The position numbers were made by a program, and so were the translations under genes. A stretch of 40,773 nt of DNA from a virus. Positions 2,295-22,614 of this stretch are shown piece after piece; the stretch's first letter is position 1, and each line of letters begins with the position of its first letter. The stretch lies in IMG/VR virus record IMGVR_UViG_3300020442_004286, positions 1 to 40,773 of that record; one strand, given 5' to 3'. Below the pieces are notes generated by a model that saw only the letters and a list, made by a program, of their open reading frames with translations, was not told where the DNA came from and did no database searches.

Positions 2295-2514
2295 CTTAAC
2301 ATTAAGACAATTACAGCAAGAAAGTGCAAGAGCATTAAATACAATGCAAGCTACAAACAACAATATCTATCAATTTAATAAACAAGCACATCATAATAGT
2401 CAGATGTGGTACAAAGCTGTCATCGAGTGGTATATAAATACTTATGGAGATTTACCGAGTAAAATTGGACCAGGTAAAGATATAAGATTAATTTTAGATG
2501 ATACATCCATTTAA
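2281..2514 (+). CDS. Small hypothetical protein, TTG start
   Basis: 77 aa, not recognised. It begins with TTG inside the end of the methyltransferase gene (14-nt overlap), about 10 nt after a GAGG, and overlaps the following radical SAM gene by 17 nt. It is predicted to be helical and polar, with a Gln/Asn-rich N-terminal third, aromatic residues in the middle (MWYKAVIEWYINTYG) and no cysteine, signal peptide or membrane segment. Its position directly before a radical SAM enzyme makes a partner or substrate role conceivable, but nothing in the sequence proves it. An internal ATG (MQATNNN) would give a shorter product. Confidence 0.5.
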   Translation: MDISNLTLRQLQQESARALNTMQATNNNIYQFNKQAHHNSQMWYKAVIEWYINTYGDLPSKIGPGKDIRLILDDTSI

Positions 2515-3478: not shown

Positions 3479-3890
3479 AATTAATTTACAACATACAAAT
3501 TATAAAATGCTTCCTAATGCAAGGCTACTAAAAGCAAATGAAATTGATATAGATTATTTACAGAATGTTTTTAGACAATATTGTGCTTACAAAAATTTTG
3601 ACAGTGTAATGCCATTATTTGATAGCGAATTTGAAGGAAATGATATTATTGGTTATTTTTATAACAATAAGATAGAAGCATTTACTATGGTAGGTGTGTA
3701 TGATGATACTAATTGTGAAAGCTATCAATTCTGTTGGACCTATCATGATCCTAACCTTAGACTAGGTATTGAAAGCATGAAGCATGAATGTGCTTACTAT
3801 AAAAGTTTAGGATTTAAATATTATTACTTAGGCCCACCAGGAAAATATAAAAGCCAACTTGAAGGTTATGAAGTGTGTGGAAAACTTTGA
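3453..3890 (+). CDS. GNAT/arginyltransferase-like (ATE-C-like) protein
   Basis: 145 aa. The middle strand pair (GYFYNNKIEAFTMVGVYDD) and the ending (helix of MKHECAYYKSLG, then FKYYYLGPPGKYKSQLEGYE) resemble the C-terminal GNAT fold of arginyl/leucyl-tRNA-protein transferases, where a YLGY-type segment is followed by K-x2-[FL]. Homology is weak and the assignment is tentative. ATG 3453 follows AGGAAAG by a few bases and overlaps the radical SAM gene by 26 nt; ATG 3507 is the alternative start. The 3' end overlaps the convergent gene by 25 nt. Confidence 0.5.
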   Translation: MSIHQKFCKINLQHTNYKMLPNARLLKANEIDIDYLQNVFRQYCAYKNFDSVMPLFDSEFEGNDIIGYFYNNKIEAFTMVGVYDDTNCESYQFCWTYHDPNLRLGIESMKHECAYYKSLGFKYYYLGPPGKYKSQLEGYEVCGKL

Positions 3891-4384
3891 ACAACATCAT
3901 TTAAATAATCTTTTGTCCAATTTTTATAATACTGCTTTTTCTTTAATATTTCTCTAGCTTTCTGTAATTTTTCTGCTTCTTGTAAAAGTATAAGTGCATA
4001 TGAACCTTGGTTTAATTTATATTCTAATACTTTTTCTTCAACAGCAGGATGATCTTCTAGTGCTATAAATCCTCTTTTTGTTAAAAATTTATCTGATGCA
4101 ATTTCTACTATATCGCTTAAATCATCACTTGAAATTAATTCTGGTTTACAGCCTAAAACTATAACTTCTTTTCCTTTTGGCCAGTGATAGCTATAATTTT
4201 CTAATTCTGCTAAAAAATATTCTTTCATAGACATCCTAGATTCATATTGATTATCTAGTTCTTGAATAACAATTTTATTTTTGATTAATGCTTCTTTAGC
4301 AAAAGGACATGCAGGTAGATTGTTAAATTCAGGTAAGTTTGTACTAAGTCTTTCTTTTATCCATTGCCGAATTTCATATTCCAT
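3866..4384 (-). CDS. Hypothetical protein with CPFA motif (DUF1415-like, weak)
   Basis: 172 aa from ATG 4384; an in-frame TTG at 4390 lies closer to an AAAGG and could be the real start. Not firmly recognised. The N-terminal W-I-K-E-R-L ... LPACPFAKEAL segment and the later VIVLGCKPELISSDDLSDIVE strand/helix loosely resemble DUF1415 proteins, which have a conserved CPFA motif. The C-terminal third is a Lys-rich helix (EKLQKAREILKKKQ). It lies immediately downstream of the amidinotransferase gene with a short overlap, so the two are probably co-translated and functionally linked. Confidence 0.5.
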   Translation of the reverse strand: MEYEIRQWIKERLSTNLPEFNNLPACPFAKEALIKNKIVIQELDNQYESRMSMKEYFLAELENYSYHWPKGKEVIVLGCKPELISSDDLSDIVEIASDKFLTKRGFIALEDHPAVEEKVLEYKLNQGSYALILLQEAEKLQKAREILKKKQYYKNWTKDYLNDVVQSFPHTS

Positions 4385-5585
4385 AATCAACTTGTTTACC
4401 TTTACGTTTAATATCTAGGGTTAAGCAATGCCAACCACCGTCCCAAAAAAATCTATGCCTTAGGGGACACACCACAGGCTCTATTTGATATTTACGTAAG
4501 TTTTCAATTAAATGTGGGTTTTCTGTGTTTACTACAACATGTCTTTCATCTAACACTAGACAGTTTACATCGAATATAGTTTCTTCTACATATCCAGTCC
4601 AGTCATGTAAAAAACTTTCTACAAACGCAGTGAATTCATCATTGTTTTCTTCTTCAGGCACCCACCACTTGCCTTGATTTTTGTGTTTCAAGTCCTTCCA
4701 GTGTTGTACCTTTGACCAGTTTGGATCTTCAAACCAAATTATTTCCCAACCTTTAAATAGATCCTTGAAAGGTTCTAAATCTCTGCTGGCTACAACTACT
4801 CCTGGCCTAATGACACTGAACACGGAATCATTATGACCACCTATAGATAATTTTTTATATTTGAATTCGGGATATTGTGTTTCTAAAAAATCTTCAACAA
4901 CAGTTGGTACTTGCCAAGTATCAACAAGACAAGTTTTTCCTATTCTAGTAAGATTAGGACTACAAAATGACGATAACATAAACCCTTCGTCTTTTTTATA
5001 CTTTGCAATATTGTTTGGTGTAACTTCTATGTTATTTTTTCCAAGGAAATTTTTTAAACTTCTATTACTACGTTCAAATTTAAATTTGCCGTCTTTTATA
5101 TCACAATCTATATTTTCTTTACCAAACCATTTTTCGTATTGAGGCAGTAATTTTTTTGTTGCAAAAGTCCAAGGATCTGTAGCTAATAATTTATTACCCA
5201 TTACAATACAATCATCTCTTGGTTGTAAAGGAGGATTCGGAACAAGACTAGGACTAACACCAGTGCTCCAAAAATTGTCATCATTTTTTTCTTCTTCGTC
5301 TCCTACATTTTTCCTATAACCTAGTTCGCCATTTACATTTACATAATCTAATATACTGTCTTTATATCCTAATTTTTTTACATCTGGTTTGTAAACTTTG
5401 ATATTATGACTCTTCATTGTATTTTCAAAATTTTCTAAATCTTCATTGGTATCATCAATAATTTTTTTCAATGCATCCTTTGCTCTTACATTTTTTACTG
5501 CATCAAAAAAATTACTGTCATAACAAGAACCTACTACAAGTTCTTCTAAAGGTTGAAATTCATCCCAACTATTAATTTTATTCAT
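4374..5585 (-). CDS. Glycine/inosamine amidinotransferase-like protein
   Basis: 403 aa, matching the usual length of L-arginine:glycine amidinotransferase and streptomycin-pathway inosamine-phosphate amidinotransferases. The N-terminus (NSWDEFQPLEELVVGSCYD) is the typical first strand of the pentein fold. GGHNDSVF supplies the catalytic His (H251), and FFWDGGWHCLTLDIKR carries the nucleophilic Cys (C387). The segment where the family has FDAAD reads FCSPNLTR, so the acidic triad member is not obvious. The family transfers an amidino group from arginine to an amine through a Cys-amidino intermediate; the acceptor is unknown. It is sandwiched between two small minus-strand genes with overlaps of 8-17 nt. 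Confidence 0.8.
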   Translation of the reverse strand: MNKINSWDEFQPLEELVVGSCYDSNFFDAVKNVRAKDALKKIIDDTNEDLENFENTMKSHNIKVYKPDVKKLGYKDSILDYVNVNGELGYRKNVGDEEEKNDDNFWSTGVSPSLVPNPPLQPRDDCIVMGNKLLATDPWTFATKKLLPQYEKWFGKENIDCDIKDGKFKFERSNRSLKNFLGKNNIEVTPNNIAKYKKDEGFMLSSFCSPNLTRIGKTCLVDTWQVPTVVEDFLETQYPEFKYKKLSIGGHNDSVFSVIRPGVVVASRDLEPFKDLFKGWEIIWFEDPNWSKVQHWKDLKHKNQGKWWVPEEENNDEFTAFVESFLHDWTGYVEETIFDVNCLVLDERHVVVNTENPHLIENLRKYQIEPVVCPLRHRFFWDGGWHCLTLDIKRKGKQVDYGI

Positions 5586-5907
5586 CTGGGTAGTCCCTGT
5601 ATAAGAAATGCTGTATTGTATCTACATCTACAAGATGATTAAATCCAATGTGTTCATCCTCTATGCTTTCTTCATTACTAATTACACTGGACATAGCATC
5701 GTCTAGTTGTTGCATATTTTTAAATTCCATATCTATTCTAAATTCTGGAAGATTCATAGATCTAAAGCCTAATTTACATCTAGTAAGTCGATAATTTTCA
5801 ATCCGGTTCATTTTGACCATTTTATCTAAAAATTTTTTCATTTTTGTAGTAAAATCTTTTGCATTAGAATTACTAGTATGATCGGCGTATATAGTGTATA
5901 TGTCCAT
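5578..5907 (-). CDS. DUF6614-like small alpha/beta-barrel protein
   Basis: 109 aa from ATG 5907. An ATG at 5964 would add 19 residues, but they lie upstream of the promoter-like motif and do not fit the family start. The sequence MDIYTIYAD ... FLDKMVKMNRIENYRLTRCKLGF ... EFRIDMEFKNMQQLDDAM ... LYRDYPD follows the order of motifs of DUF6614, a dimeric ferredoxin-like barrel family of unknown function. It overlaps the amidinotransferase start by 8 nt and is the first gene of the minus-strand trio. A weak AAAAGAG lies upstream. Confidence 0.65.
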   Translation of the reverse strand: MDIYTIYADHTSNSNAKDFTTKMKKFLDKMVKMNRIENYRLTRCKLGFRSMNLPEFRIDMEFKNMQQLDDAMSSVISNEESIEDEHIGFNHLVDVDTIQHFLYRDYPDE

Positions 5908-5933
5908 ATGTAAATTATGCTCTTTTATGTAGT

Positions 5934-5947
5934 GGTAAATATTTATT
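5934..5947. promoter_or_regulatory. Divergent pair of T4-late-like promoter motifs
   Basis: The plus strand reads GGTAAATA (5934-5941) and the minus strand AATAAATA (5947-5940). Both match 7 or 6 of the 8 bases of the T4 late element TATAAATA. If transcription starts 6 bases past each element, plus transcripts begin near 5947 and minus transcripts near 5934. The AT-rich background makes chance matches common; the intergenic, divergent position is what supports the call. Confidence 0.4.
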
Positions 5948-5955
5948 GTTAATAA

Positions 5956-6984
5956 ATGGAGCAAATATTAGATATGGTTTGGAATTCGGTATCTTTATTA
6001 AGAAAACACACAAAGCAAATAGTAAAACAAGTCACAGCAGAAATCTCAAATAAATATCCTAATAGAACAGTGTATTTCAATAAATGTAGTAGAGATTTAA
6101 AGTATATTTTTACTGCTATTGCAGATTGTTTGGAATCTGATAATCAAAAATCGTTGATGTATGTAATAAAAAATTTTTTTAGAGGTGGAGAATTACGTCT
6201 ACAAAGTATTGATGTAGAAATAGAAGCATACAGTATTGCAGAAAATAAAATTCACAATTTATTTGATGCAAGTAACATAGATCCTTTATTTAAACAAAAA
6301 GTAACAGATTGTTTTGATATAATAAAAGAAAATTTTAAAAATGGTTACACTGATACAACTTATCCTGATAACTCTTGGACACAGATGTTAGAAGCGAAGA
6401 AGCAGTGTGCAACCTGGAGTGATAAAAAAGTAGATAAAGAAGAAATAGAAAGTATACTAGATGATATACACAAACACTGTAATAGTAAACAAAATAAAGT
6501 ACCTTATGAAATTAAAGTAATGGATTGGTCTAATACAGAAATGCGAGATTTACTTTTTCGTCATGCCCGCGACGAAGAATCACCAGAAGGTAAAAAGATA
6601 ACCCATTATAATACACAAGTGCTGGCTCCTTATGTGTTTTTATTCTTTGAGAGAGATGACAATACATATGATGAAAGAGATCTATTAAGGATTTCTAATT
6701 TAGAAATAGGATTAGCTGTTCAAACAGCGGCTTTAAGTGCAGTATCTAAAGGCTTGAGCGTAGGATTTTGTAAATGTTTTAATGATAGAGATAGACAAGA
6801 ATTTCACAAAAAGTTTAATGTGTTTAGTTCGCCTAGTGTTGTTCTAGGAATTGGATATTATAAAGAAAACAAAACACAAATAAATTATCATACACAAAAA
6901 CAACATCAGGCTTGGATCAGTTCAACTGTTCAAGAAGGAAAACATATTAAACCTGCAATGTATGATTATGTAAGTTATGTATAA
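5956..6984 (+). CDS. Nitroreductase-fold flavoprotein
   Basis: 342 aa. The C-terminal half (about residues 185-320) has the nitroreductase signature order: MRDLLFRHARDEE, then an APYVFLFFERD strand, then EIGLAVQTAALSAVSKGLSVGFC (the central helix with A-x4-LxG(L)xxGFC), then PSVVLGIGYY. The N-terminal ~180 residues are an unrecognised helical extension. Family members are FMN-dependent NAD(P)H oxidoreductases acting on quinones, nitro groups, flavins or peptide heterocycles. ATG 5956 lacks a Shine-Dalgarno; ATG 5974 follows GGAG at 5958 and is a good alternative. It overlaps the next radical SAM gene by 8 nt, so the two may work together. Confidence 0.65.
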   Translation: MEQILDMVWNSVSLLRKHTKQIVKQVTAEISNKYPNRTVYFNKCSRDLKYIFTAIADCLESDNQKSLMYVIKNFFRGGELRLQSIDVEIEAYSIAENKIHNLFDASNIDPLFKQKVTDCFDIIKENFKNGYTDTTYPDNSWTQMLEAKKQCATWSDKKVDKEEIESILDDIHKHCNSKQNKVPYEIKVMDWSNTEMRDLLFRHARDEESPEGKKITHYNTQVLAPYVFLFFERDDNTYDERDLLRISNLEIGLAVQTAALSAVSKGLSVGFCKCFNDRDRQEFHKKFNVFSSPSVVLGIGYYKENKTQINYHTQKQHQAWISSTVQEGKHIKPAMYDYVSYV

Positions 6985-8053
6985 TTACGAAGATATTAAA
7001 ACAATCCATTTAGAAGTGACACAAAATTGTCAAGCCGCATGTCCTATGTGCGACCGTAACATGAATGGCGAAGGGGTCAATCCGCATATTAATCTAGATG
7101 AATTAAGTTTAGAAGATTGTAAGAATATTTTTACACCTAAGTTTATTTCTCAACTTGATACTATGTTCATGTGTGGCAATTTAGGAGATCCTATAATTGC
7201 ACGTGACACATTAGAAATTTTCAGATACTTTAGAAAACACAATCAAAACATGTGGCTAAGTATGAATACTAATGGAGGAGCTAGAGATGAAGAGTGGTGG
7301 ATGGGACTGGCAGACATATTTGCTCGTCGCGGTGCTGTTATTTTTAGCGTTGATGGCTTACGATCTACAAACCACTTATACCGCCAAGGCGTTGTTTGGG
7401 ACAACGTCGAACGTTCCATGAAAGCATTTATTAAAGGTGGAGGCAGAGCTCGTTGGGATTACTTAATTTTTGAACACAATCAACATCAAGTAGAAGAAGC
7501 AGAATCTCTTAGTAAGGAATGGGGTTGCGAAAAATTTATTGCTAAAAAAACTGGCAGATTCATTACTACACAGTCTAAGAAAAAAGATACTCACCAAGCT
7601 GTAAATAAAAAAGGAAAAACTACAACACAACTTAAAAAACCTGAAAAAAAATATCAAAACAAAGCGTTAAAAAAACAAGATGTAATCATTAACAAGTACG
7701 GTAGTATGGATGTTTACTACGATGATGCTCCTATAGTTTGTAAAGTTAAAAAAGAAAACAGCTTGTTCATAACAGCTGAAGGTTTAGCTTTGCCTTGTTG
7801 TTGGACAGCAGGACGTATGTATAAGTGGTGGCATGAAGATCCATATGTTGAGCAAATATGGACTCATATTGATATTGCAGGAGGCAAACAAGCATTAGAT
7901 GCACGACAAGGCCTTGACAAAGTGTTTGACACAGGAATTTTTAATACTATTCAAGATAGTTGGAAATTAGATAGTTGTAATTTGGGAAAATTAAAAGTTT
8001 GTGCAATGAAGTGTGGAGCAGAATTTGACCCATTTACGGAGCAATTTAAATAA
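6977..8053 (+). CDS. Radical SAM/SPASM protein
   Basis: 358 aa. The cluster motif is CQAACPMC (C18, C22, C25). MFMCGNLGDPI stands where the GGEP loop normally is, as in other phage SPASM proteins. FSVDGL is a core barrel strand. A Lys/Gln-rich spacer (about residues 200-235) separates the barrel from the SPASM-like region, which has IVCKV, LPCCWT and a C334-x7-C342-x3-C346 tail. It is a paralog of the next gene, which starts on the shared TAATG. GC content rises to 43-48 % over 7321-7440, well above most of the window. Substrate unknown; peptide or small-molecule modification is typical of the family. Confidence 0.85.
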   Translation: MYNYEDIKTIHLEVTQNCQAACPMCDRNMNGEGVNPHINLDELSLEDCKNIFTPKFISQLDTMFMCGNLGDPIIARDTLEIFRYFRKHNQNMWLSMNTNGGARDEEWWMGLADIFARRGAVIFSVDGLRSTNHLYRQGVVWDNVERSMKAFIKGGGRARWDYLIFEHNQHQVEEAESLSKEWGCEKFIAKKTGRFITTQSKKKDTHQAVNKKGKTTTQLKKPEKKYQNKALKKQDVIINKYGSMDVYYDDAPIVCKVKKENSLFITAEGLALPCCWTAGRMYKWWHEDPYVEQIWTHIDIAGGKQALDARQGLDKVFDTGIFNTIQDSWKLDSCNLGKLKVCAMKCGAEFDPFTEQFK

Positions 8054-9111
8054 TGCATTACGTTGAACATCCTACAACATTACAAATTGAAATTTCATCA
8101 AATTGTAATTTGTGTTGTACAGGTTGTTGTCGGGTAGACGAAAATAGTTATGACATAAAGCCTAATAAATTTATTCCAAAAAATAAATTTTTAAGTGTTG
8201 AAATATTTAATAACCTTGTAAATGATCCTGCACTTAGTAAATTAAACAAGATTGAATTTTGCGGCACAATAGACGACCCACTTACTCATCCGAATTTTTT
8301 AGATTTTTTAAAAATTCTAAAGGAAAAGAATATTTCGTCTCAAATACATACAAACGCAAGTTTACGTACACCTGAATATTGGAAAAAAATAGCAGATTTG
8401 ACAAAACATGACGGACATACTTGTGTAAAGTTTAGTATTGATGGTTTAGAAGACACCAATCATTTATACAGACGTGGAGCTAATTGGAACAAAATTATGG
8501 AAAATGCTAAAGCATTTATAGAAGCAGGAGGAAATGCGTGGTGGCAAATGATTGTTTTTTCTTGGAATGACCATCAAATAGCTACAGCACAAAATTTAGC
8601 TAAAAAAATGGGATTTAACATGTTTAAGTATAGGCATGATAGGAGTAGGTCACCTAATGCAATCCAAGCTAAAGAAATGTCTGCTAAAAATTTTGGTACT
8701 AAAAAGACTAAAACTTACGAGCAACGAGTAAGATCTATGCAAACAATGTTACCTTTAAAAATTGAATGTTTTTCACAAAAAGAAAATTATTATTTTATAG
8801 GCCATAATGGTCAAGTTTGGCCTTGTTGTTTTTTAATGAATGCAAATTGGTCTACATTAACTCTAAGCGAAGAATATAACAATAGATTTGAAGGAAATTA
8901 TGGAAAACATTGGAATAATATAAATTACAAATCATTTAGTGAAATATTAAAATCACCTTTTTACACAGAAGATTTAGTTGATAGTTGGAAAAGTAAAAAA
9001 CACGGATCAGGTTGTAAAGACAGAGTTATAAGATGCACAGAAACTTGTAGTGTAAAAAGGTTAAAGGATAATCCTTTAGCAGATATCTCTCATGAAAATT
9101 GTATATTATAA
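8053..9111 (+). CDS. Radical SAM/SPASM protein, paralog of upstream gene
   Basis: 352 aa. The cluster motif is CNLCCTGC (C18, C22, C25) with a fourth cysteine directly after it. FCGTIDDPLTHP replaces the GGEP loop, FSIDGLEDTNHLYRRG is nearly the same as the matching part of the upstream paralog, and WPCCF plus C-terminal Cys residues (GCKD, RCTETC) form the SPASM-like region. Translation is coupled to the upstream gene (stop/start TAATG). The 3' end overlaps the convergent PLP gene by 6 nt. Confidence 0.85.
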   Translation: MHYVEHPTTLQIEISSNCNLCCTGCCRVDENSYDIKPNKFIPKNKFLSVEIFNNLVNDPALSKLNKIEFCGTIDDPLTHPNFLDFLKILKEKNISSQIHTNASLRTPEYWKKIADLTKHDGHTCVKFSIDGLEDTNHLYRRGANWNKIMENAKAFIEAGGNAWWQMIVFSWNDHQIATAQNLAKKMGFNMFKYRHDRSRSPNAIQAKEMSAKNFGTKKTKTYEQRVRSMQTMLPLKIECFSQKENYYFIGHNGQVWPCCFLMNANWSTLTLSEEYNNRFEGNYGKHWNNINYKSFSEILKSPFYTEDLVDSWKSKKHGSGCKDRVIRCTETCSVKRLKDNPLADISHENCIL

Positions 9112-9945
9112 TGCTCTAAGTAAAGGTCTTACACCTACAGGTTTTCCTTCTTTGGTTTTTGCTAAATGAATTGCTTTTGTCTGATAAAGATCAAAATCTT
9201 TGCATACTTTTTCATATTTTTCTTTATACTTGTTCCAAAAATATTCAGGACCTATATGATCTATAAATTTTATACCCAGGCTTACAAGGGCTTGACTATT
9301 CATGTTAAATTCATTCATTAATGTGATTGAACCTGAGGGTTTTTCTCTAGCATATCTCAATCCAATTCTATTTCCGCCAAGTCCACCTTTACTCAAACTG
9401 ATGCCCACAGTTTTGATAGCTGGATGATTGAAATCAAAAGAAATGTGTCTGATACAACTTATCCATGCACCATCAATATGCACAGAAATATTTTTCTTAT
9501 GTGCAGAATCTAATATTTGCTCCATGTCAGGATGTACATCTCCGTAAAACGGAAATGGCATAGATATTAATAACTCTTTGTTAGGGTCTAGTGTTTCTAC
9601 TGTAGTGTATTTAATATCATTGTTAAGACGCCAATGATACTTGTAATCGTTTTCAAAAATTTGTAAACTACCACACCTTTGATACAAATCATCAATATAT
9701 TGTGTGCAACCATTTATAATATCTCTGTGTTTAAAATTTTCTAAACCAAAAAATATACTTAATTTATGATTCTTCATATATTCATCAAACTTTTCTTTAA
9801 ATAATTCGTCTAAATTGTGTGTATGTACTGGATTTTGCTTGTAAAACCCATCATAAAGTTCGTTTATTTTTTTATCGTACATAGGCTGTGGTCTAGTGTG
9901 TTGCAACCATTCTTTTGTGTACTTTCTATTTGTGCTGTCTCTCAT
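9106..9945 (-). CDS. Minimal PLP-dependent aminotransferase-like protein
   Basis: 279 aa, much shorter than the 350-450 aa of fold-type I aminotransferases. It still shows the PLP core: HIDGAW with Asp158 (pyridine-nitrogen ligand), and GISLSKGGLGGNRIGL with the candidate Schiff-base Lys186 and phosphate-contact Arg193. The chain ends soon after the large domain, so the small C-terminal domain is reduced or absent. A paralog lies at 21757-22614. It may be an aminotransferase, lyase or a degenerate regulator. It is a lone minus-strand gene between two plus-strand radical SAM blocks, with its start 40 nt from the divergent array. Confidence 0.7.
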   Translation of the reverse strand: MRDSTNRKYTKEWLQHTRPQPMYDKKINELYDGFYKQNPVHTHNLDELFKEKFDEYMKNHKLSIFFGLENFKHRDIINGCTQYIDDLYQRCGSLQIFENDYKYHWRLNNDIKYTTVETLDPNKELLISMPFPFYGDVHPDMEQILDSAHKKNISVHIDGAWISCIRHISFDFNHPAIKTVGISLSKGGLGGNRIGLRYAREKPSGSITLMNEFNMNSQALVSLGIKFIDHIGPEYFWNKYKEKYEKVCKDFDLYQTKAIHLAKTKEGKPVGVRPLLRAL

Positions 9946-9971
9946 AGTAATACTTATATGTTATATGCGTA

Positions 9972-9979
9972 TATAAATA
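9972..9979 (+). promoter_or_regulatory. T4-late-type promoter TATAAATA before the radical SAM array
   Basis: This is an exact TATAAATA in the only gap before the 23-kb plus-strand gene run. With the T4 geometry (element at -13 to -6) the start site falls on 9985, the A of the ATG, predicting a leaderless mRNA. No Shine-Dalgarno is visible upstream of the ATG, which agrees. Confidence 0.55.
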
Positions 9980-9984
9980 TAATA

Positions 9985-11172
9985 ATGAAGCCGTGTATTT
10001 TGCCTTGGATAAATTTTAGCACAAATACATTCGGCAGACCCAGAGTCTGTGGATATAGCAGTGTGAAAACTCCTACTAAACTAAAAGACAGTACTCTTTC
10101 TGTTGAATGGAACAGTGACTATTTTAGAAAAATTAGGAAAGATTTTCTAGCCGGAAAGTGGCCAGAAAATTGCAGTCGTTGTGAGTATGTAGAAAAACTT
10201 AAAGGTGTTAGCAAAAGACAAGACGAAAATGGTTTTTGGTTTGATCAATACAAACATTTAATTGATCAAACAAAAGAAGATGGTAGCGTGCCGTATGACC
10301 CGCCACATATAGATGTACGCACAGGTATGATATGTAATTTAAAATGTATTCATTGTGGTACAGGAGCAAGTAGTAAATGGCAGGAAGATAAATTACTTTT
10401 AGATAAGTACCCCAACACAGAAAACTATAACATAGATAATAAATGGATTGAACAGCAAAACGAATTTTGGAATCACTTACGCAGTAAATGGCATGAAACA
10501 AAAAGATATAATTTTTTAGGCGGTGAAAGTTTTGCAAACAAAAGGCATAACGAATTTTTAAAAGATTTATCAGAAACTGAACATGCAAAAAATGTGCATC
10601 TTGCATATGTATCAAATGGGACACTTATAAATGAAGATAGGTTACAACAATTAAGTAAATTCAAACATATTGTTATGAGACTTAGTATAGATGCTTTGGA
10701 AAGGGCAGGTGAATATTTTAGATTTCCTATAAAATGGGAAACGTTTACAAAACAGCTTAAAGTAATTGATAATTTTGTTGCAGATAAAAATAATTTTGAT
10801 ATAGGAGTACAATGGACTTGTAGTAACGTAAGTATGTTTTATCTTATAGACACTTATGATATAATTAGAAAAGAATTTCCTAACATTAAATTTTTATTCT
10901 GCAATCATGTTGAATGGCCAATTCACATGAGTGCTCAGGTGTTACCACTTGAATTAAAAAATAAAATAAAAGATAAGATTGCTAATTATAATTTTAAAGA
11001 AAGAGATTTAGAAGATTATCCTTTTTATGTTAATCATATGATGGAAAAAGATTTATGGGAAGAGCACGGCCATACATTTATGAATTATCTAGATGATTTG
11101 GATACTGCAAGAAAGATTAGTTGGAGATACAATTTTCAGGAAATGGAGTTAGATAAGTATGATCCAAGATAA
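9985..11172 (+). CDS. N-terminal-twitch radical SAM protein (array member 1)
   Basis: 395 aa from ATG 9985. A longer frame from 9817 would read antisense through the PLP gene and across the promoter, and its N-terminus is unlike the family. The N-terminal twitch module has C4-x17-C22 and C63-x2-C66, linked by the helix WNSDYFRKIRKDFLAGKWP. The radical SAM motif is CNLKCIHC (C117, C121, C124), followed by an S-S-K-W segment and a GGES loop (179-182). The second twitch cysteine is C-G rather than the usual C-C. This architecture implies one SAM-binding [4Fe-4S] cluster plus one auxiliary cluster placed before the barrel. Overlaps the next gene by 14 nt. Confidence 0.85.
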   Translation: MKPCILPWINFSTNTFGRPRVCGYSSVKTPTKLKDSTLSVEWNSDYFRKIRKDFLAGKWPENCSRCEYVEKLKGVSKRQDENGFWFDQYKHLIDQTKEDGSVPYDPPHIDVRTGMICNLKCIHCGTGASSKWQEDKLLLDKYPNTENYNIDNKWIEQQNEFWNHLRSKWHETKRYNFLGGESFANKRHNEFLKDLSETEHAKNVHLAYVSNGTLINEDRLQQLSKFKHIVMRLSIDALERAGEYFRFPIKWETFTKQLKVIDNFVADKNNFDIGVQWTCSNVSMFYLIDTYDIIRKEFPNIKFLFCNHVEWPIHMSAQVLPLELKNKIKDKIANYNFKERDLEDYPFYVNHMMEKDLWEEHGHTFMNYLDDLDTARKISWRYNFQEMELDKYDPR

Positions 11173-14874: not shown

Positions 14875-16171
14875 TACTTTTTGTCCTATTCCCTGGAACT
14901 TTCAAGCAGTGCAAAATAATGGAACAGTGCGTGTTTGCTGTCAAATGAATATGACTAAAGGTAGAGGCACGCTATTCAAGGACGATGGTGCGCCTTATAA
15001 TGCAGGAAAAGATGATTTAGATAGTGCTAGAAATGCAAAACTTATTAAAAGCGTAAGAAAAGACATGTTACAGGGCAACTGGCCTAAGGATTGTGTGAGA
15101 TGTATGCAAGAAGAACAAAGTGGCTTACGTAGCAGAAGAATATATGAAAATGAATCTTGGAATTTGACAGTTGAACAAGCAAAAGAATTTACAGAAGGTG
15201 ATGGTACTATAGATTCTAAAAAATTTCCATTGGTATATTATGATTTAAGGTTTGGAAATTTGTGTAATTTAGCATGTAGAATGTGCGGACCAGAAGATAG
15301 TCATACTTGGTACAAAGATTGGGCAAAAATGTACGGTCCAGAATGGGATGATACACACGGCAAAGTTAAATTACAAAAAAATTCAAAAGGTAGATGGGTA
15401 ACTGATGCATATGATTGGCATTACAGCACAAAATTTTGGGATCATATAGAATCTAATTTACAAAATATTCAACATGTTTATATGGCAGGTGGAGAACCAT
15501 TGTTAATTGAGCGTCATTATGAATTTTTACAAAAGTGTATTGATGCAGGTGTTGCAAAAAATATTATTATAGAATATAATACAAATTTAACAAATATTCC
15601 TCACAAAGTTTTACCTATGTGGGAAAAATTTAAACTTATAAGAATAGGTGCAAGTATTGACGGATATGGTAAAGTCCAAGAATACCAAAGATATCCTTCT
15701 AAATGGTCTGCTATAGAAAAAAACTTACAAAAAATCGATAGTATGCCCCAAAATATTTCAGCTTGGATTGCTTTTACTGTTACAAATATAAATGTCTATC
15801 ATGTGCCTGAATTTATTTCTTGGAAATTACAACAAAATTTTAAAAAAATAAACAAAGGAAAAACAAAAATTATTACGCATCATGTTTGTCATAAACCTTG
15901 GTACAGTAGTATAAGAGTTTTGCCTAGTAATACCAAAAAAGATATCACAGCTCATTATGAAGATTGGAAAGAAAAGTTTGAAACATATGATGATAATACC
16001 AAGAAACGTGCATGTTCAATTTTAGACAGTATAAGTAACTACATGAATGCAAAAGATGAGAGTGATAAATTATCAAATTTTGTAGAATACACTAAAAAAC
16101 TTGACACAATAAGAAATCAAAGCATTTTAGATATAGTACCTCAATATAAAGACATATTCGATGAAAAATAA
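14867..16171 (+). CDS. N-terminal-twitch radical SAM protein (array member 5)
   Basis: 434 aa; AAGGAG precedes the ATG by about 8 nt. The twitch module is C6-x17-C24 (CC) and C76-x2-C79 in CVRCMQEEQSGLRSR. The radical SAM motif is CNLACRMC (C133, C137, C140), then GPEDSHTW and AGGEPLLIE. GASIDGYGKVQEYQR is the conserved core strand and RVLPSNTKKDI the shared motif in the C-terminal half. The tail LDTIRNQSILDIVPQYKDIF is the clearest form of the shared C-terminal signature. Close sister of members 6 and of the distant copy at 37788. Confidence 0.88.
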   Translation: MSNTFCPIPWNFQAVQNNGTVRVCCQMNMTKGRGTLFKDDGAPYNAGKDDLDSARNAKLIKSVRKDMLQGNWPKDCVRCMQEEQSGLRSRRIYENESWNLTVEQAKEFTEGDGTIDSKKFPLVYYDLRFGNLCNLACRMCGPEDSHTWYKDWAKMYGPEWDDTHGKVKLQKNSKGRWVTDAYDWHYSTKFWDHIESNLQNIQHVYMAGGEPLLIERHYEFLQKCIDAGVAKNIIIEYNTNLTNIPHKVLPMWEKFKLIRIGASIDGYGKVQEYQRYPSKWSAIEKNLQKIDSMPQNISAWIAFTVTNINVYHVPEFISWKLQQNFKKINKGKTKIITHHVCHKPWYSSIRVLPSNTKKDITAHYEDWKEKFETYDDNTKKRACSILDSISNYMNAKDESDKLSNFVEYTKKLDTIRNQSILDIVPQYKDIFDEK

Positions 16172-17570
16172 AGTAAGTGATACATTTTGTTTGCTACCAT
16201 GGGTACATTTAAGTACTAGGCCTGATGGCTCAATGAGAGTCTGTTGTACTGCTAACGCAAGTAGCGTAGGGCCAACTAATGATAAAAAGTATGGAGGCCA
16301 AGTAGGTATATTAAAAGATGATGAAGGTAGGCCTAACAACTTAAATGTAAGTGATTTTCAGACTGCTTGGAACAGTGAATATATGAAAAATGTTCGGCTA
16401 CAGATGTTAAACGGTGAAAAACCTCCTAGTTGTCTCAAGTGTTATAAAGAAGAAGATGCAGGGCATCGTAGTAAACGCATGTGGGAAACAGATTACTGGA
16501 GTAAACGTGTAGATGTAGATAAAATTCTACAAGAAACAAATGCAGATGGAAGTGTGCCGCCTAATTTAGCTTATATAGATTTGCGTTTTGGAACTAAATG
16601 TCAACTTGCTTGTGTAATGTGTTCGCCACACGACAGTAGTGGTTGGATAAAAGATTACAAAGCAATTTTTCCAGCAGTAAAAAATGAGTCATTAAAAGAA
16701 ATAATGCAATGGAAAGATAAAGGTTCTACTAACGGAAGTAGTTACAATTGGCATAAACAAAATCCTACTTTTTGGAAACAGTTTTACGAACAAATGCCAA
16801 GTATGCAACAGATTTATTTTGCTGGTGGCGAAAGTTTAATTATAGAAGAACACTACGAAATCCTTGAACATGCTATTAAAATGGGTTATGCAAAAGATCT
16901 TGAACTTCGATATAATTCTAATGGTGTAGAATGGCGAGAAGATTTATTTGATTTATGGAAGGAATTTAAACTTGTAAGATTTCATTATTCTATTGATAGT
17001 ATTAAACAAATGAATGATTACATCAGGTACCCTAGTAATTGGAAACGCCAAGAAGAAGTATTTCATCTTTTAGATACACAAACAACAGATAATGTTGAAG
17101 TGACTATTGCTACAGCCGTTCAGGCATTAAACATTTACTATCTACCTGATTTGATACAATGGAAATTAGAACAGAATTTTAAAAAAGTAAACATGTGGCC
17201 ATTTGGTGCAGGAGGTATAAGTCAACACTTTGTTTATTGGCCTGGTCATCTTAATGTCAAAGTTTTGCCTAAATGGTTTAAAGAAGAATGCCATAAAAAA
17301 TATGAATCATGGTATCCTTGGTGGGAAAAGAACTGGGAGCTAGGAATTCCTAGTTGGCATAAAGGAAAAGTAAATTTTGCTCAATGGCGCACAGCAGAAT
17401 ATGGAATCAAAAGATTAGAAGGAATTTTAAGTTTTATGGATAGCGAAGACTGGAGCAGACGCTTACCAGAAATGCAAGAATTTTTACAATTATGTGATCA
17501 GCAAAGAGGTATAAGTTTTGCAGAAACATTTCCGGAGATGAAGGACATATTTATTGACTTGCAACAATAA
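16161..17570 (+). CDS. N-terminal-twitch radical SAM protein (array member 6)
   Basis: 469 aa, the longest of the set. The twitch module is C10-x17-C28 (CC) and C91-x2-C94 in CLKCYKEEDAGHRSKR. The radical SAM motif is CQLACVMC (C147, C151, C154), followed by SPHDSSGW and AGGESLIIEE (S in place of P). FHYSIDSIKQMNDYIR is the core strand. The KVLPKWFKEEC motif and the tail CDQQRGISFAETFPEMKDIF are conserved. Extra Trp/Tyr-rich residues around 390-420 (WYPWWEKNWE) distinguish it from its sisters. It ends 18 nt before the next gene. Confidence 0.88.
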   Translation: MKNKVSDTFCLLPWVHLSTRPDGSMRVCCTANASSVGPTNDKKYGGQVGILKDDEGRPNNLNVSDFQTAWNSEYMKNVRLQMLNGEKPPSCLKCYKEEDAGHRSKRMWETDYWSKRVDVDKILQETNADGSVPPNLAYIDLRFGTKCQLACVMCSPHDSSGWIKDYKAIFPAVKNESLKEIMQWKDKGSTNGSSYNWHKQNPTFWKQFYEQMPSMQQIYFAGGESLIIEEHYEILEHAIKMGYAKDLELRYNSNGVEWREDLFDLWKEFKLVRFHYSIDSIKQMNDYIRYPSNWKRQEEVFHLLDTQTTDNVEVTIATAVQALNIYYLPDLIQWKLEQNFKKVNMWPFGAGGISQHFVYWPGHLNVKVLPKWFKEECHKKYESWYPWWEKNWELGIPSWHKGKVNFAQWRTAEYGIKRLEGILSFMDSEDWSRRLPEMQEFLQLCDQQRGISFAETFPEMKDIFIDLQQ

Positions 17571-17588
17571 ATGTGTTAGTATAAAGGT

Positions 17589-18701
17589 ATGTCTGAAGAT
17601 TTAAAATGGAGCAATTATGACTTTACAAAAATACCTTTCAAGGATATTGTAAGTGTAGGTCAACGAACTCTCTTATATAGAGATCTATTTACTGTATCTT
17701 GGTTATTAGGAAGATTTTGCAATTATAGATGTTCGTATTGTTGGCCTTATGCAAGAAGCGATAGGAAAGATCATAGACCAACAGAACTATGTTTACGCAC
17801 TATAGACAGTATAAAGGAGCAAGCACGTGACAACGGTTTTAATTCTTTTCATTTTAGTTTATCTGGTGGCGAGCCTACGTTTCACCCAGGATATCTTGAC
17901 ATCCTTAAATATTTGGCTGATGACGTCAGCAATACTAATTACACTAGTATACATATGACCTCTAATTGTTCCAGACCTATTAAATGGTTTGAGACTTATG
18001 TAGAATATGCAAAACCTTTTCATCGTGCAAGTATTACAGCAAGCCTTCATACAGAACATGTAAATACAAAAGAAAAGATGCAAGAGTTTGCAGATAAACT
18101 TAACTTATGTCAGGAGAACGATGTACAAATTACAATTAATCAAGTTATGGTTCCAGAATGGTTTGAAAGAGATTGGGAAAACGCTCTCTTCTTCCACGAA
18201 AGAGGTATCAATGTTACTCTTAAACCTCAGTCCGATCCAACAGCCTCAAGAGTGGTTGATGGATACAAAAAAGAACAACTCGAAAGACTCTGGAACGGAA
18301 TGCCGCAAAGAGCCTTCACCGAAGCGAAACGTATTTGGAATAACCGTCCACGACCACAGTTTCAAGTTCCCGCAGGAATAACCGGAAAAAATGATGCTAG
18401 TGTGCCTTGGCACATGCAGGTAGAATTAGAAGACTCTAAAGGAACAAAGTGGTATATGGACCAAGCAGAACGCTTTAATGCCTTTAATTTCAATAATTTC
18501 GAAGGATGGCGGTGTAACGCCGGTTTTAGCGGAATAATAATACGGGAGCCTGACGGTTCTGTAAAAAGAAGTTATTCGTGCCATGATGCACCTCTTGGTA
18601 ACATAGAAACAGGTTTTACCTTATTTAAAGAGCCAAAAACGTGTATTACAAAAAGTTGTGTCAGTTCAGCAGATTCTAAGATACCCAAGAGAAAAGTTTA
18701 A
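17589..18701 (+). CDS. Radical SAM protein with SPASM-like C-terminus, inside the N-twitch array
   Basis: 370 aa; ATG follows AAAGG. The radical SAM motif is CNYRCSYC (C44, C48, C51) and SLSGGEPTFHP is the SAM loop. There is no N-terminal twitch; instead the C-terminus has W-R-C309 ... S-C331 ... T-C352-x4-C357 with LGNIETGFTL, as in the protein at 2498-3478. Composition is unusual: 18181-18420 is about 47 % GC with CTC/ACC/CGT codons against about 25-30 % in neighbours, suggesting that part of the gene came recently from a higher-GC relative. It is the only non-N-twitch member within the nine-gene block. Confidence 0.85.
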   Translation: MSEDLKWSNYDFTKIPFKDIVSVGQRTLLYRDLFTVSWLLGRFCNYRCSYCWPYARSDRKDHRPTELCLRTIDSIKEQARDNGFNSFHFSLSGGEPTFHPGYLDILKYLADDVSNTNYTSIHMTSNCSRPIKWFETYVEYAKPFHRASITASLHTEHVNTKEKMQEFADKLNLCQENDVQITINQVMVPEWFERDWENALFFHERGINVTLKPQSDPTASRVVDGYKKEQLERLWNGMPQRAFTEAKRIWNNRPRPQFQVPAGITGKNDASVPWHMQVELEDSKGTKWYMDQAERFNAFNFNNFEGWRCNAGFSGIIIREPDGSVKRSYSCHDAPLGNIETGFTLFKEPKTCITKSCVSSADSKIPKRKV

Positions 18702-18702
18702 C

Positions 18703-19896
18703 ATGAATAATTTAGATACTATTTGCACATATCCTTGGACATGGTTTAGTTTTAATGTTGATTATGGAATGTGGCGAATATGTCCTAGAAGTGAATATAG
18801 GTGGTTTCAAAATGAAAAAGAAGTAAATGATTTTTTCAACACACCTACCCAACAGGATATACGTAAATCTTTATATAATGGTATAAGACATAGTAACTGC
18901 AAAGATTGTTACACAGCAGAAGATAAAGGAGGAATGAGTTATAGAAAAGCATTAAAAAGAAACTATGAAGTGCAAAATGCAGATTCTGTAATTTTAAATT
19001 CTCCTAAAGTTATTGAATTAAAATTTAGTAATTTGTGTAATTTAAAATGTGTGTTTTGTGCCAGTGTGTGTAGTAGTTTATGGGAGCATGAAGTTGGTTT
19101 GCCAAAATATGTTACTAAAAATCAAAAAGTTTCTGCAGATTATATGAAAAAAGTTATATTTGATTGGCTTGAAAATAATATAGAAAGTTTAGATTGTATT
19201 ATGTATTTAGGTGGTGAACCTGCTATACAACCTGAATTCTATGATATAGTAGATTTACTTGTCAAACACAGTCCTGAGAAAGTTGGCGTTAAAGAATTGA
19301 CCTTTAGTACAAATACTTATTATGGTGATGCTCATAGGAAAAAATTTGAAGATGCAATACAAAAAGTTTTAGATGTAGGGCATACAATATTTCCTAGAGT
19401 GAGCTTAGACGGAATTGGGGATAAGCAAATATACCAGAGAACAAATTTAAAATGGGAAAATTTTGAAAAAAACATGTTAAGTTTTTTTAATAAATTTAAC
19501 ATGAAAACACCTGGTGTTACAAAAGTAAGAGCAAATATTGCATTGAATATTTTAAATTTAATTTATTGTGAAGAAATAGTAAAATATTTAGACAATATGG
19601 GATATGGAGATATAGAACCACATTATAATTATATTGTTAAACCTGAAATGTTTTATATGCGTCATTGGGGAAGTAGATTGAACAAAGCAATAGATATTAT
19701 ACAAACACAAGATTTTAAAAACCATAAAAAGTACAAGCAACATATTTTAAAAATGGCTAAGTCGTTTACAAATTTAGAGCCAAATTTAGATCATATTAAA
19801 AAAACAAAAAAATGGATTGAAGAATACGATGAAAAAAACAATTTAAATTTTCAAAACATTTTTCCAGAAAATAGGTTTATGTTTGATGAAATGTAG
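18703..19896 (+). CDS. N-terminal-twitch radical SAM protein (array member 7)
   Basis: 397 aa from ATG 18703, one base after the previous stop; the in-frame extension to 18658 runs through the upstream gene and lacks family features. The twitch module has C8-x18-C27 (one residue longer, C-P instead of C-C) and C66-x2-C69 in CKDCYTAED. The radical SAM motif is CNLKCVFC (C112, C116, C119), then S-V-C-S-S-L-W and LGGEPAIQP. VSLDGIGDKQIYQR is the core strand. The tail NLNFQNIFPENRFMF is a variant of the shared C-terminal signature. Confidence 0.85.
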   Translation: MNNLDTICTYPWTWFSFNVDYGMWRICPRSEYRWFQNEKEVNDFFNTPTQQDIRKSLYNGIRHSNCKDCYTAEDKGGMSYRKALKRNYEVQNADSVILNSPKVIELKFSNLCNLKCVFCASVCSSLWEHEVGLPKYVTKNQKVSADYMKKVIFDWLENNIESLDCIMYLGGEPAIQPEFYDIVDLLVKHSPEKVGVKELTFSTNTYYGDAHRKKFEDAIQKVLDVGHTIFPRVSLDGIGDKQIYQRTNLKWENFEKNMLSFFNKFNMKTPGVTKVRANIALNILNLIYCEEIVKYLDNMGYGDIEPHYNYIVKPEMFYMRHWGSRLNKAIDIIQTQDFKNHKKYKQHILKMAKSFTNLEPNLDHIKKTKKWIEEYDEKNNLNFQNIFPENRFMFDEM

Positions 19897-21037
19897 TTTA
19901 CTTGATCATGGCTTATATTTTTACCCAGAAAAAGATAACCTTGCTTCTAGCAAGGCCTGCTGTCATTTTTCTAGAAACAAATTAAATCGTATAAGCCTGT
20001 CAAATTTATCTAATATCTTTGAAGATGAACACAGAATTTCTGCAAAAAATGCGTTAAAAAATAACGAAAATTTTGATAGTTGTAATTCATGTTGGAAGCA
20101 TGAAAAAGTAGGTTATCCTAGTATGCGTACTAGAGTAAATGAATTAGGAATAAAAGGAGAATACGGCGAATTAAAATATTTAGAATTAAACACTGGAAAT
20201 ACTTGTAACATACAATGTGTGATGTGTAATCCAAACGATAGCATGAAAACAAAAATGTATATTCCTATTCGTGAAAAATATAAACAGATTGATTCATCAA
20301 GATGGGAAAATTTATATGCAAGAGGCCTGCATAAAACAGACATTGATGCTTTAGATTTTAGTGTGTTTAAAAATTTAGAATATCTTAAAAGCACTGGAGG
20401 TGAAACTTTTTATAGCAAAGAATATTGGTATATGTTAGAAAAGTTTATAGATAAAGGTTATGCACAAAATATTACTATTATAAATGTTACAAATAATACT
20501 ATTCCTCTAGATAAAACAAAACTTGAAATATTTAAAAATTTTAAAAGAGTAAAAATTTTTAGCAGTGTTGACGGAATAGGTGAATTATGTGAATCTATTA
20601 GGGCTGGCAGTGTTTGGAATGATGTAAACGATAATATTAAGCATTTAATAGAACTTAATAAAGAGTATCCTAAAATATTTTCACACACTGAACCACATAC
20701 AGTGGTTCAATATGCAAACGCTTTACAGCTTGACGAAATTGTAAATTGGTGGGAAAAGATCAGCCATCCTGCTTTTAGAACAAAACAGTATTTTAGGATT
20801 TTAGATCAGCCTAGTTATTATGACATAAGAAATTTAAACAAGAATATAAAAGATAAAATACAAAACAGATATAAAAATATTCATAAATTAAAACATGTAG
20901 TAAATTATTTGAAAACAAATAAAAGTCTATATGATAGTGAAATGGGTTACAATATTTTCAATGAAAGTTGTCTTATCAATAAAGTAAATCCATTATCGTC
21001 ACATGTGCATAAGGAGATGGAAGATGCTATACAGTAA
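19886..21037 (+). CDS. N-terminal-twitch radical SAM protein, divergent (array member 8)
   Basis: 383 aa from ATG 19886 (in-frame TTG at 19883 also possible). The twitch module is changed: C3-x21-C25 (CC), without the usual C-x-x-P-W motif, and C66-x2-C69 in CNSCWKHEKVGYPS. The radical SAM motif is CNIQCVMC (C107, C111, C114), followed by NPNDSMKT and STGGETFYS, so both the S-x-W and P of GGEP are altered. FSSVDGIGELCESIR is the core strand. The shared C-terminal signature is absent. It carries two perfect small inverted repeats in its DNA. Probably a different substrate or a partner subunit. Confidence 0.82.
   Translation: MKCSLLDHGLYFYPEKDNLASSKACCHFSRNKLNRISLSNLSNIFEDEHRISAKNALKNNENFDSCNSCWKHEKVGYPSMRTRVNELGIKGEYGELKYLELNTGNTCNIQCVMCNPNDSMKTKMYIPIREKYKQIDSSRWENLYARGLHKTDIDALDFSVFKNLEYLKSTGGETFYSKEYWYMLEKFIDKGYAQNITIINVTNNTIPLDKTKLEIFKNFKRVKIFSSVDGIGELCESIRAGSVWNDVNDNIKHLIELNKEYPKIFSHTEPHTVVQYANALQLDEIVNWWEKISHPAFRTKQYFRILDQPSYYDIRNLNKNIKDKIQNRYKNIHKLKHVVNYLKTNKSLYDSEMGYNIFNESCLINKVNPLSSHVHKEMEDAIQ
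19939..19955. other. Perfect 6-bp hairpin inside coding sequence
   Basis: CCTTGC-ttcta-GCAAGG lies about 50 nt downstream of the start of array member 8. It is GC-rich for the region. A T5 run begins about 11 nt after the stem, so it is not a clean intrinsic terminator. Confidence 0.4.
20689..20709. other. Perfect 8-bp hairpin inside coding sequence
   Basis: TGAACCAC-ataca-GTGGTTCA lies within array member 8. No T-run follows, so an intrinsic terminator is unlikely. It could be an mRNA structure, a protein-binding site or chance. Confidence 0.45.
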
Positions 21038-21764
21038 ACCGCAAGACATAATGTTTGACGATGATAGAATAGATAAACTTAAAAAAATTAAATCTGACTC
21101 GCAAGTAATAAAAAATTTTTTCAGCAAAGATGAAATTGAAAAAATTATTAGAGAAAAAGAAAATTCTGTACCTGTAAATAAATTAGGAAGTATTGTAAAT
21201 TGGAAATATTCGGCAAACTCAGAATACAAAAACTGGCTTGAAGAAAAATTTCAAAAAGTTTTGCCCCATAAGTTTACTCAACACGGAGGAAATTATTTTA
21301 AAACAAGTATGCCTTTTTTTGTGCATACTGATACAGGCAAGGAAGAAGTAAATAATTTACTTCCTTACAAAAACATTGTTGTACCACTTACACAAAGTTC
21401 AAAAGATCAGCCATGTTATACAGTTTTATTTAAACAGAGATGGTATGGGCAGTCATGCATGTTTTGGAAAGGACCGCTTTTTAAAAAATCTAAAACTGAT
21501 TACAATTATAAATTAGAAGATTACTCTACATTAGAGAATTTTACAAATAGGAATATGAGCATAAATGAATATACTAATTTTCTTACACATTTACCGTATA
21601 ATAATTTACATGGACTTTCTGTAGAGTGTGTTTATGAATGGAATATTGGCGATATAATTATTTTTGATTGCACACAATTACATAGTAGCAATGATTTTAC
21701 CAGCAAAGGATCTACTAGTCCTAAATTTGCTTTAAGTTATTTTTGTAGGGTTACTGATGATTAA
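21024..21764 (+). CDS. Probable Fe(II)/2-oxoglutarate-dependent oxygenase
   Basis: 246 aa from ATG 21024, which follows AAGGAG by 7 nt; ATG 21003 would leave that site inside the gene. The metal facial triad is suggested by FFVHTDTG (H101, D103) and DCTQLHSSNDF (H220). The basic residue that binds 2OG is not an obvious Arg; K234 in SPKFALSYF is a candidate. The fold is the double-stranded beta-helix seen in hydroxylases such as phytanoyl-CoA or prolyl types. It overlaps the radical SAM gene upstream by 14 nt and the PLP gene downstream by 8 nt. Confidence 0.65.
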   Translation: MLYSKPQDIMFDDDRIDKLKKIKSDSQVIKNFFSKDEIEKIIREKENSVPVNKLGSIVNWKYSANSEYKNWLEEKFQKVLPHKFTQHGGNYFKTSMPFFVHTDTGKEEVNNLLPYKNIVVPLTQSSKDQPCYTVLFKQRWYGQSCMFWKGPLFKKSKTDYNYKLEDYSTLENFTNRNMSINEYTNFLTHLPYNNLHGLSVECVYEWNIGDIIIFDCTQLHSSNDFTSKGSTSPKFALSYFCRVTDD

Positions 21765-22614
21765 AGGAGCAAGAGCTATTTTTGACAGTAATGTATATAA
21801 CTTTGTTAAGTCATGCGACCTTTGGAACAGTAATGATGAAAGTATGACATATGCAAATGTGAATAAATTTGTATCAACTTATAAATTAAAATTAAGTGAA
21901 TACAAATATTCGCAATTACAAGGTTTAGGAAAATACAAGTTTGTCAATGTAGTAGACGGTGTCACTGGTGCGTTTCTTGACTGGTATATAACTTTTGGAA
22001 TAAAAAATATTTTTGTTCTTAAAGGAGAATACCCTTTTCATAAGGCTAATGGATGCAAAGAAGTAGATACAGTTTACCAAGTTCCAATGTACAAAACATT
22101 AATATTAAGTCTACCATTTAGTGCTACAGGTAATGTGCATGAAAATTTTTACGAAATACTAGAAACATGCGTAGCTAATAAAATTAATTTACTCATAGAT
22201 TGTGCTTATCTTAATATTAGTTCTATAGGAAAAATAAACATTGATTGTATACAGATACAAAGTATTGCTACTAGTTTAAGTAAAGTCTATAATACAGGAT
22301 CAAATAGAATAGGTTTACAATTTAACAGGTATGATAAAAATAGTCCTTATAAAGAACTTAATAATTGGTCTTACTTAAATCATCATAGTATTAATCTGCA
22401 TACACAACTCTTAAACAAATTTAAATTATCATACACATTAGAAAAATATCAACAAACACAAAAAACAATATGTAACAAATATAACTTAGATAAAAGTGAC
22501 ACAGTAATATTTGGTTTGTCTAATGCCGAAAAATATAATTCATACAATCGATCTGGAATAATTAATAGAATATGTATATCAAAGGAAATACAAGATGCAA
22601 ATAACATACAATGA
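21757..22614 (+). CDS. Minimal PLP-dependent aminotransferase-like protein, second copy
   Basis: 285 aa, paralogous to the minus-strand protein at 9106-9945. LLIDCAY carries the PLP-ring Asp148; IATSLSKVYNTGSNRIGLQF carries candidate Lys176 and Arg184. SLPFSATGNVHENFYEIL matches SMPFPFYGDVHPDMEQIL in the paralog. As there, the N-terminal and small domains are short. Embedded in the operon between two 2OG oxygenases, which suggests amine introduction or removal in the same pathway as the oxidations. Confidence 0.7.
   Translation: MIKGARAIFDSNVYNFVKSCDLWNSNDESMTYANVNKFVSTYKLKLSEYKYSQLQGLGKYKFVNVVDGVTGAFLDWYITFGIKNIFVLKGEYPFHKANGCKEVDTVYQVPMYKTLILSLPFSATGNVHENFYEILETCVANKINLLIDCAYLNISSIGKINIDCIQIQSIATSLSKVYNTGSNRIGLQFNRYDKNSPYKELNNWSYLNHHSINLHTQLLNKFKLSYTLEKYQQTQKTICNKYNLDKSDTVIFGLSNAEKYNSYNRSGIINRICISKEIQDANNIQ

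Follow-up and report, generated by a model that had tools for sequence, protein, structure and literature searches.

A conserved four-gene amidinotransferase cassette in a radical SAM-rich putative modification island of a large uncultivated T4-like phage

Phage modules that combine several radical S-adenosylmethionine (SAM) genes with an amidinotransferase have been on record since 2010: the T4-like Campylobacter phages CP220 and CPt10 carry one in which a putative glycine amidinotransferase is surrounded by five radical SAM genes (PMC2853527). No tested function for such modules was found in the open-access literature. A T4-like ocean genome holds 12 radical SAM genes (PMC5332604), and pelagimyophages carry a tail-adjacent hypervariable island of glycosyltransferases and radical SAM cassettes, for which a change of the host surface was proposed (PMC7029224). 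For the predicted sugar and amino-acid secondary-metabolite clusters of jumbo cyanophages, envelope decoration or production of a small molecule was proposed (PMC7824862). The argolaphos cluster combines AglA/AlpD with GNAT aminoacyl-tRNA ligases and an aminotransferase dependent on pyridoxal phosphate (PLP) (PMC8976061); AglA binds heme through Cys44 and hydroxylates the nitrogens of guanidine groups (PMC12866846). Here we analysed the 40,773-base IMG/VR record IMGVR_UViG_3300020442_004286 (the window, meaning the whole of this stretch) and describe a conserved four-gene cassette at positions 3453-5964 that encodes an amidinotransferase-fold enzyme (AT) and three partners.

The window is linear, with 30% G+C and without tRNA genes; given that it is linear, it is probably a fragment, and its source is a large uncultivated T4-like phage. 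The cassette consists of a GNAT protein (3453-3890, plus strand), a protein with an AglA-like predicted fold (3866-4390, minus strand; hereafter the 3866 protein), AT (4374-5585, minus strand) and a DUF6614 protein (5578-5964, minus strand; PF20319, E = 1.4e-21) that probably starts at an internal ATG 19 codons in. The DUF6614 and AT genes overlap by 8 nucleotides (nt) and the AT and 3866 genes by 17 nt, while the 3866 and GNAT genes converge tail to tail. Relatives of AT were found in 51 viral loci and relatives of the DUF6614 protein in 23, on contigs partly common to both. Profile hidden Markov models were then applied to 50 AT loci with 2.5 kb on either side. A partner lay within 1.5 kb of the AT gene in 44 of the 50 loci for the 3866 type, in 43 for GNAT and in 43 for DUF6614, and all three were present within 3 kb in 40. 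The cassette genes co-occurred despite shuffled orders and orientations (L063, L067-L070), and AT and DUF6614 formed a pair in the absence of the other two in L073, L075, L077 and L078, where AT is only ~27-30% identical. The cassette often has a gene for a short PLP protein in its company, along with genes for radical SAM enzymes. No description of the four-gene cassette was found in the open-access literature, and a preliminary description made from the window's letters had left it out, together with the oxygenase-like, fatty-acid hydroxylase/desaturase, SpeD and SGGxDS proteins considered below.

That the gene at 4374-5585 encodes an enzyme of the amidinotransferase fold, as first proposed, was borne out: it keeps the catalytic residues of the family as C387, H251 and D253. 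A search with the single sequence scored against solved amidinotransferases (HsvA, 2e-10; AGAT, 3e-7; StrB1, 1e-4) over no more than the 60-70 residues at the C-terminus. Using tblastn against plasmids, up to 90-99% of AT was aligned to cellular amidinotransferases at 22-24% identity, and given this coverage the homology extends over the full length. Full-length homology and the catalytic Cys, His and HxD Asp place the enzyme in the AGAT/StrB1 superfamily. Residue mapping, in which the region of AGAT Arg322 is less surely aligned, revealed that AGAT Cys407, His303, Asp305 and Asp170 are retained across all phage ATs compared. Two other superfamily residues are missing from the window enzyme. 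AGAT Asp254 is replaced by Cys208, a position that holds Cys throughout the window's clade and varies in other phage ATs. AGAT Ser355 is replaced by Glu335; all phage ATs compared have Glu at this site, and all cellular ones have Ser. From AGAT structures we take Arg322 and Ser354/355 to grip arginine at its amino-acid end, and Asp254 to be catalytic. The changes at Asp254 and Ser355 thus suggest an altered donor or an altered reaction. Judged from these residues, free L-arginine is doubtful as the donor, and 'arginine amidinotransferase' is an unproven label for the window enzyme.

In a maximum-likelihood tree, which contains long branches and was built without deiminases, the phage ATs formed one group (100/100) apart from AGAT, StrB1 and the amidinotransferases of Robbsia and Streptomyces, while the StrB1 reference (L095; E = 5e-173 to 1bwd) grouped with the Robbsia enzyme and AGAT. 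The enzyme is therefore placed neither with StrB1 nor with AGAT, the two placements weighed in the preliminary description. There were no deiminases among the database matches of AT. Neither the phage AT nor the phage-type DUF6614 protein had a cellular relative in an exact short-pattern scan of genome contigs, which is weak evidence of absence. Three Streptomyces plasmids (L090, L092, L093) share the arrangement aspartyl/asparaginyl hydroxylase, amidinotransferase, ATP-grasp. The amidinotransferase of CP220/CPt10 is homologous to that of the window (~23% identity, E = 1e-5) and shares the Ser-to-Glu change, but the CPt10 enzyme, unlike the window's, retains the equivalent of AGAT Asp254. No relative of the window's DUF6614 or GNAT protein was found in these phages, and members of the 3866 family turned up in cyanophages only.

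The GNAT-like protein of the preliminary description is indeed present, but it appears to belong to the aminoacyl-tRNA-dependent transferase kind (ATE_C/MprF/FemX). Its model (predicted local distance difference test score, pLDDT, 93) was nearest to MprF, FemX and Ate1-type structures (Z = 15.5 for MprF, 13.8 for FemX), and the ATE_C profile scored one homologue at 27.3 bits (cut-off 25) and the others marginally under the cut-off. Both profile and fold are therefore of the ATE_C type, although the window protein is a single domain of 145 amino acids and not a tandem GNAT. Its chemistry is thus likely to differ from that of a plain GNAT-like protein.

For the 3866 protein, an AglA-like reading is a lead provided by the predicted model (pLDDT 94), not an identification. 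Foldseek gave no significant match; among 1000 re-aligned chains, AglA alone exceeded Z = 5.1 (Z = 8.0-8.5 over ~154 residues). Residues C28, P29, D113, H114 and W158 of the family are kept across the viral contigs and cyanophages, the C28-P29 and D113-H114 pairs being invariant. The invariant Cys of the family is a candidate counterpart of Cys44, the heme ligand in AglA. Attempts to recover AglA by sequence failed, as neither profile found it in the PDB, and a likeness to DUF1415 seen by eye had no Pfam match. The argolaphos cluster offers a parallel, bringing together a YqcI/YcgG heme enzyme that acts on guanidines, GNAT ligases and a PLP aminotransferase (PMC8976061, PMC12866846). It differs in its phosphonate genes and in a gene table that lists neither an amidinotransferase nor radical SAM enzymes, and by sequence the window's 3866 protein falls outside the AglA family (PF08892).

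The surroundings of the cassette are best seen in longer relatives. In the closest of these (G013, AT 85% identical), the window's gene order follows a 5,256-amino-acid open reading frame and tail-fibre-like genes with PHROG tail matches, and is likewise preceded by two glycosyltransferase-looking genes. Two further contigs (G004, G006) have a similar layout, so that adjacency to tail or baseplate genes was found in three relatives, and a fourth contig (G008) contains fibre-like genes. The genes that connect the island to the tail-fibre genes in relatives correspond to the first two of the window, encoding a glycosyltransferase-like protein (2-1111, plus strand) and a methyltransferase-like protein with N-terminal repeats (1098-2294, plus strand; by eye). 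The former, listed as glycosyltransferase-like in the preliminary description, had an NCBIfam match to a family-2-type synthase (E = 0.011), but no match in Pfam or PHROG, and is unproven. The Gp23 capsid gene occurs in 7 of 14 contigs with cassette genes, which reach 343 kb, and the baseplate protein of G004 is nearest to those of the jumbo phages Atu_ph07 and SCTP-2. Beside the island of the same contig (15807-19684; L105) we noted by eye a TctA/TctB/TctC tripartite tricarboxylate transporter-like set and a TRAP-type binding protein. Together, these sequence comparisons indicate that the region belongs to a hypervariable modification island, situated beside tail-fibre and baseplate genes in jumbo T4-like relatives. 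The hypervariable, fibre-adjacent island of pelagimyophages is similar, but the window's relatives represent another lineage, and an amidinotransferase is unmentioned in PMC7029224. The clusters of jumbo cyanophages share the dense packing of phage-borne modifying enzymes; neither radical SAM enzymes nor an amidinotransferase are mentioned there (PMC7824862).

Radical SAM genes number 16 in the record, and every one of them encodes the CX3CX2C motif. Ten encode proteins with an N-terminal twitch domain, and all ten matched NF033640 (E <= 1e-5; 392 and 299 bits for two members, cut-off 170). The count of ten twitch proteins given earlier therefore stands, but only eight lie inside the interval 4374-22614 to which they had been assigned. 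These are six consecutive genes (9817-17570, plus strand; starts at 9817, 11159, 12285, 13570, 14867 and 16161) and two more at 18658-19896 and 19883-21037 (both plus strand); the other two are at 26872-27906 and 37788-39191 (both plus strand). The true start of the 9817 gene is probably ~9985, given that its G013 orthologue has 395 amino acids. The ten proteins are ~21-35% identical to one another, which marks them as old paralogues rather than products of a recent tandem duplication. Radical SAM proteins elsewhere include one without twitch next to the cassette (2498-3478), one at 6977-8053, one with a C-terminal SPASM domain (8053-9111) and one without twitch that is kept in marine and freshwater relatives (17589-18701), all on the plus strand. 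A viperin-like reading of the radical SAM proteins was rejected, its matches being far under cut-off. One phage contig of 71.7 kb (G008; L101-L104) carries 22 radical SAM genes and a second, divergent AT-like gene (61089-62126).

Two short PLP-type proteins were found where the preliminary description had placed them. The fold-type-I protein at 9106-9945 (minus strand) has a distant valine-pyruvate transaminase match (E = 3.8e-6, far below cut-off), its SxSK lysine is present in 23 of 23 distinct relatives, and proteins of its type occur near many AT loci. The protein at 21757-22614 (plus strand) has an SLSK motif and is 27% identical to the first.

Our preferred reading, tentative at a probability of about 0.35, is that the island adds a guanidino-type group to a surface structure, either a host envelope glycan or a virion protein. 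Both targets are plausible, since in relatives the island borders on genes for tail fibres and on glycosyltransferase-like genes. From what the sequences show (which genes are present and how they are linked, the family catalytic residues kept, the donor-site residues altered, the clade of AT and the location in relatives) we infer the reactions, substrates and target as follows. An amidino-Cys387 intermediate would form on AT, aided by His251 and Asp253, the donor probably being a differently held guanidine compound, such as a carboxylate-blocked arginine, rather than free L-arginine. The acceptor of the amidino group would be an amine that the PLP and radical SAM enzymes make or expose. Hydroxylation of the resulting guanidine by the AglA-like protein may follow, as may addition of an aminoacyl group by the GNAT, with a charged tRNA as its source. 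The product would decorate the host envelope glycan, with receptor change and exclusion of rival phages as effects, or the phage's own fibres. In a more specific version, a phage-only pathway, a remodelled AT would draw the amidino group from arginine whose carboxylate is blocked, as in arginyl-tRNA or peptidyl-arginine. It would work with a GNAT that depends on tRNA and a hydroxylase of the heme-thiolate type, and tail fibres or host envelope glycans would come to bear (N-hydroxy)guanidino groups; this version is very unlikely to apply in that form.

Several observations weigh against surface tailoring by this route. The changes at the donor site could reflect a loss of transfer activity. The match between the 3866 protein and AglA is weak (Z ~8) and outside the 50 best Foldseek matches, and PF08892 (YqcI/YcgG) was unmatched at E <= 1 in the 14 contigs that carry the 3866 family, as it was by hmmscan. 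Many of the loci are near-copies, so that 40 of 50 inflates the number of independent cases. Six loci (L079, L080, L082-L085) hold the three partners with no AT detected, and four (L049, L052, L055, L059) hold AT without the three partners. Finally, the window itself, a fragment, has no tail gene, and the location is read off its relatives.

The AT-less loci speak for regarding GNAT, the AglA-like protein and the DUF6614 protein as T4-like accessory proteins of virion assembly or regulation with AT as an incidental neighbour. In two of them (L080, L084), from jumbo phages, the partners adjoin baseplate-hub and gp46-like genes (by eye), and in cyanophages the 3866 family adjoins the baseplate wedge genes gp25 and gp6. 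The partners may therefore predate AT and have an older role to which AT was added. A merely incidental AT is nonetheless distinctly unlikely, given its linkage to the partners in varied order in 40 of 50 loci and the persistence of the AT-DUF6614 pair in loci with divergent AT. For the twitch radical SAM proteins, the oxygenases, the PLP proteins and AT, the substrate could instead be a peptide, or virion proteins such as those of the tail fibres, and tail-fibre adjacency in relatives fits this reading. Many peptide maturases are among the relatives found by the twitch/SPASM profiles (SkfB, 3.6e-9 in the PDB; PapB, YhhB and others under the NCBIfam cut-off). In addition, a radical SAM gene adjoins the gene of an unusually conserved 77-amino-acid protein (2281-2514), for which identity is 73-82% in most close relatives, against mostly 40-70% for its neighbours. 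However, this protein has no variable core in the relatives compared, and intergenic space is minimal (303 nt in total outside the chosen open reading frames), leaving scant room for a precursor gene. We consider such peptide or protein modification unlikely, and rejected a ribosomally synthesized and post-translationally modified peptide with a separate precursor gene, for which 2281-2514 is the sole candidate.

The preliminary description had proposed a guanidino-sugar or aminocyclitol pathway, with radical SAM oxidation of the BtrN type, amination by PLP aminotransferases, amidination by a StrB1-type enzyme and glycosyltransferase attachment. Its broadest form, a guanidine-type decoration, is partly supported; the form built on StrB1 and BtrN is not. 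The window shares with these enzymes the AT superfamily and the combination of twitch domain and radical SAM core, but the twitch is N-terminal to the core in all ten proteins and C-terminal in BtrN, and the PDB match to BtrN is confined to the twitch (profile 5-75 versus BtrN 166-240). AT, with its changed donor residues, lies outside the StrB1 clade, and the PLP proteins are of another type than StrS/DegT. Neither a cyclitol synthase, a sugar nucleotidyltransferase nor a StrS/DegT aminotransferase was recognised in the window, which is a fragment, and SDR genes are likewise missing from it; the absence of the first two had been noted from the start, although both occur in one cousin contig (G006). 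A C7-cyclitol synthase of the sedoheptulose-phosphate-cyclase type was found in two of 14 related contigs (G005, G006), ~10-20 kb from AT, and 12 of the 14, which are partial, lack it. The enzyme of G006 (L096:1339-2400, equal to G006:C1:43986-45047) has ValA as its best PDB match (4p53, E = 5e-77; dehydroquinate synthases 1e-41 and weaker). The same contig encodes NTP_transferase, SDR and short DegT proteins and, two genes upstream of the synthase, a RuBisCO-like protein (G006:C1:41751-43028, L098:11751-13028; PF00016, E = 2.5e-43). DegT proteins occur in 9 of 16 related contigs, and in Synechococcus phage S-SCSM2R a distant AT adjoins genes annotated as KdsA, KdsB and glycosyltransferases. 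Cyclitol chemistry thus appears, from gene content, to be present in some such islands, yet it is no constant partner of AT, and we give an aminocyclitol pathway in the window little credence. That AT instead yields a free small metabolite for the infected cell, for example guanidinoacetate in a creatine-like route, would agree with its AGAT-superfamily fold and with the GAMT of Arctic viruses, read as creatine synthesis (PMC11360552). It is extremely unlikely, as AT is outside the AGAT clade and differs from AGAT at the residues by which the latter holds free arginine, and no creatine-type methyltransferase was recognised next to AT.

Further enzyme genes were noted in the window. Several 2-oxoglutarate oxygenase-like proteins are encoded, two with Pfam support and the rest by eye. 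A fatty-acid hydroxylase (25289-25774; PF04116) and two adjacent fatty-acid desaturase genes (28515-30049; PF00487) suggest that lipids are possibly modified too. An S-adenosylmethionine decarboxylase (SpeD; 24371-24730, PF02675) and a nitronate-monooxygenase-family protein (36801-37778; PF03060) were also recognised. Three proteins have an SGGxDS ATP-pyrophosphatase-like motif by eye: that at 33212-34147 (plus strand), with a weak likeness to QueC and NAD synthase, and those at 34113-35018 and 35564-36754 (both minus strand). A protein resembling them adjoins the cassette of G006. QueE-like and FolE-like genes were seen by eye in some contigs, but 7-deazaguanine DNA modification was rejected, as no TGT/DpdA (PF01702) was found in 16 contigs. 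For the kinase-like protein of the preliminary description, Pfam gave no support within the window.

With its recognisable active-site changes, the conserved four-gene cassette forms a small testable unit. If surface tailoring with a guanidino-type group is the correct reading, guanidine chemistry would join the means by which large phages alter surfaces, and amidinotransferases would possibly gain a new kind of donor.

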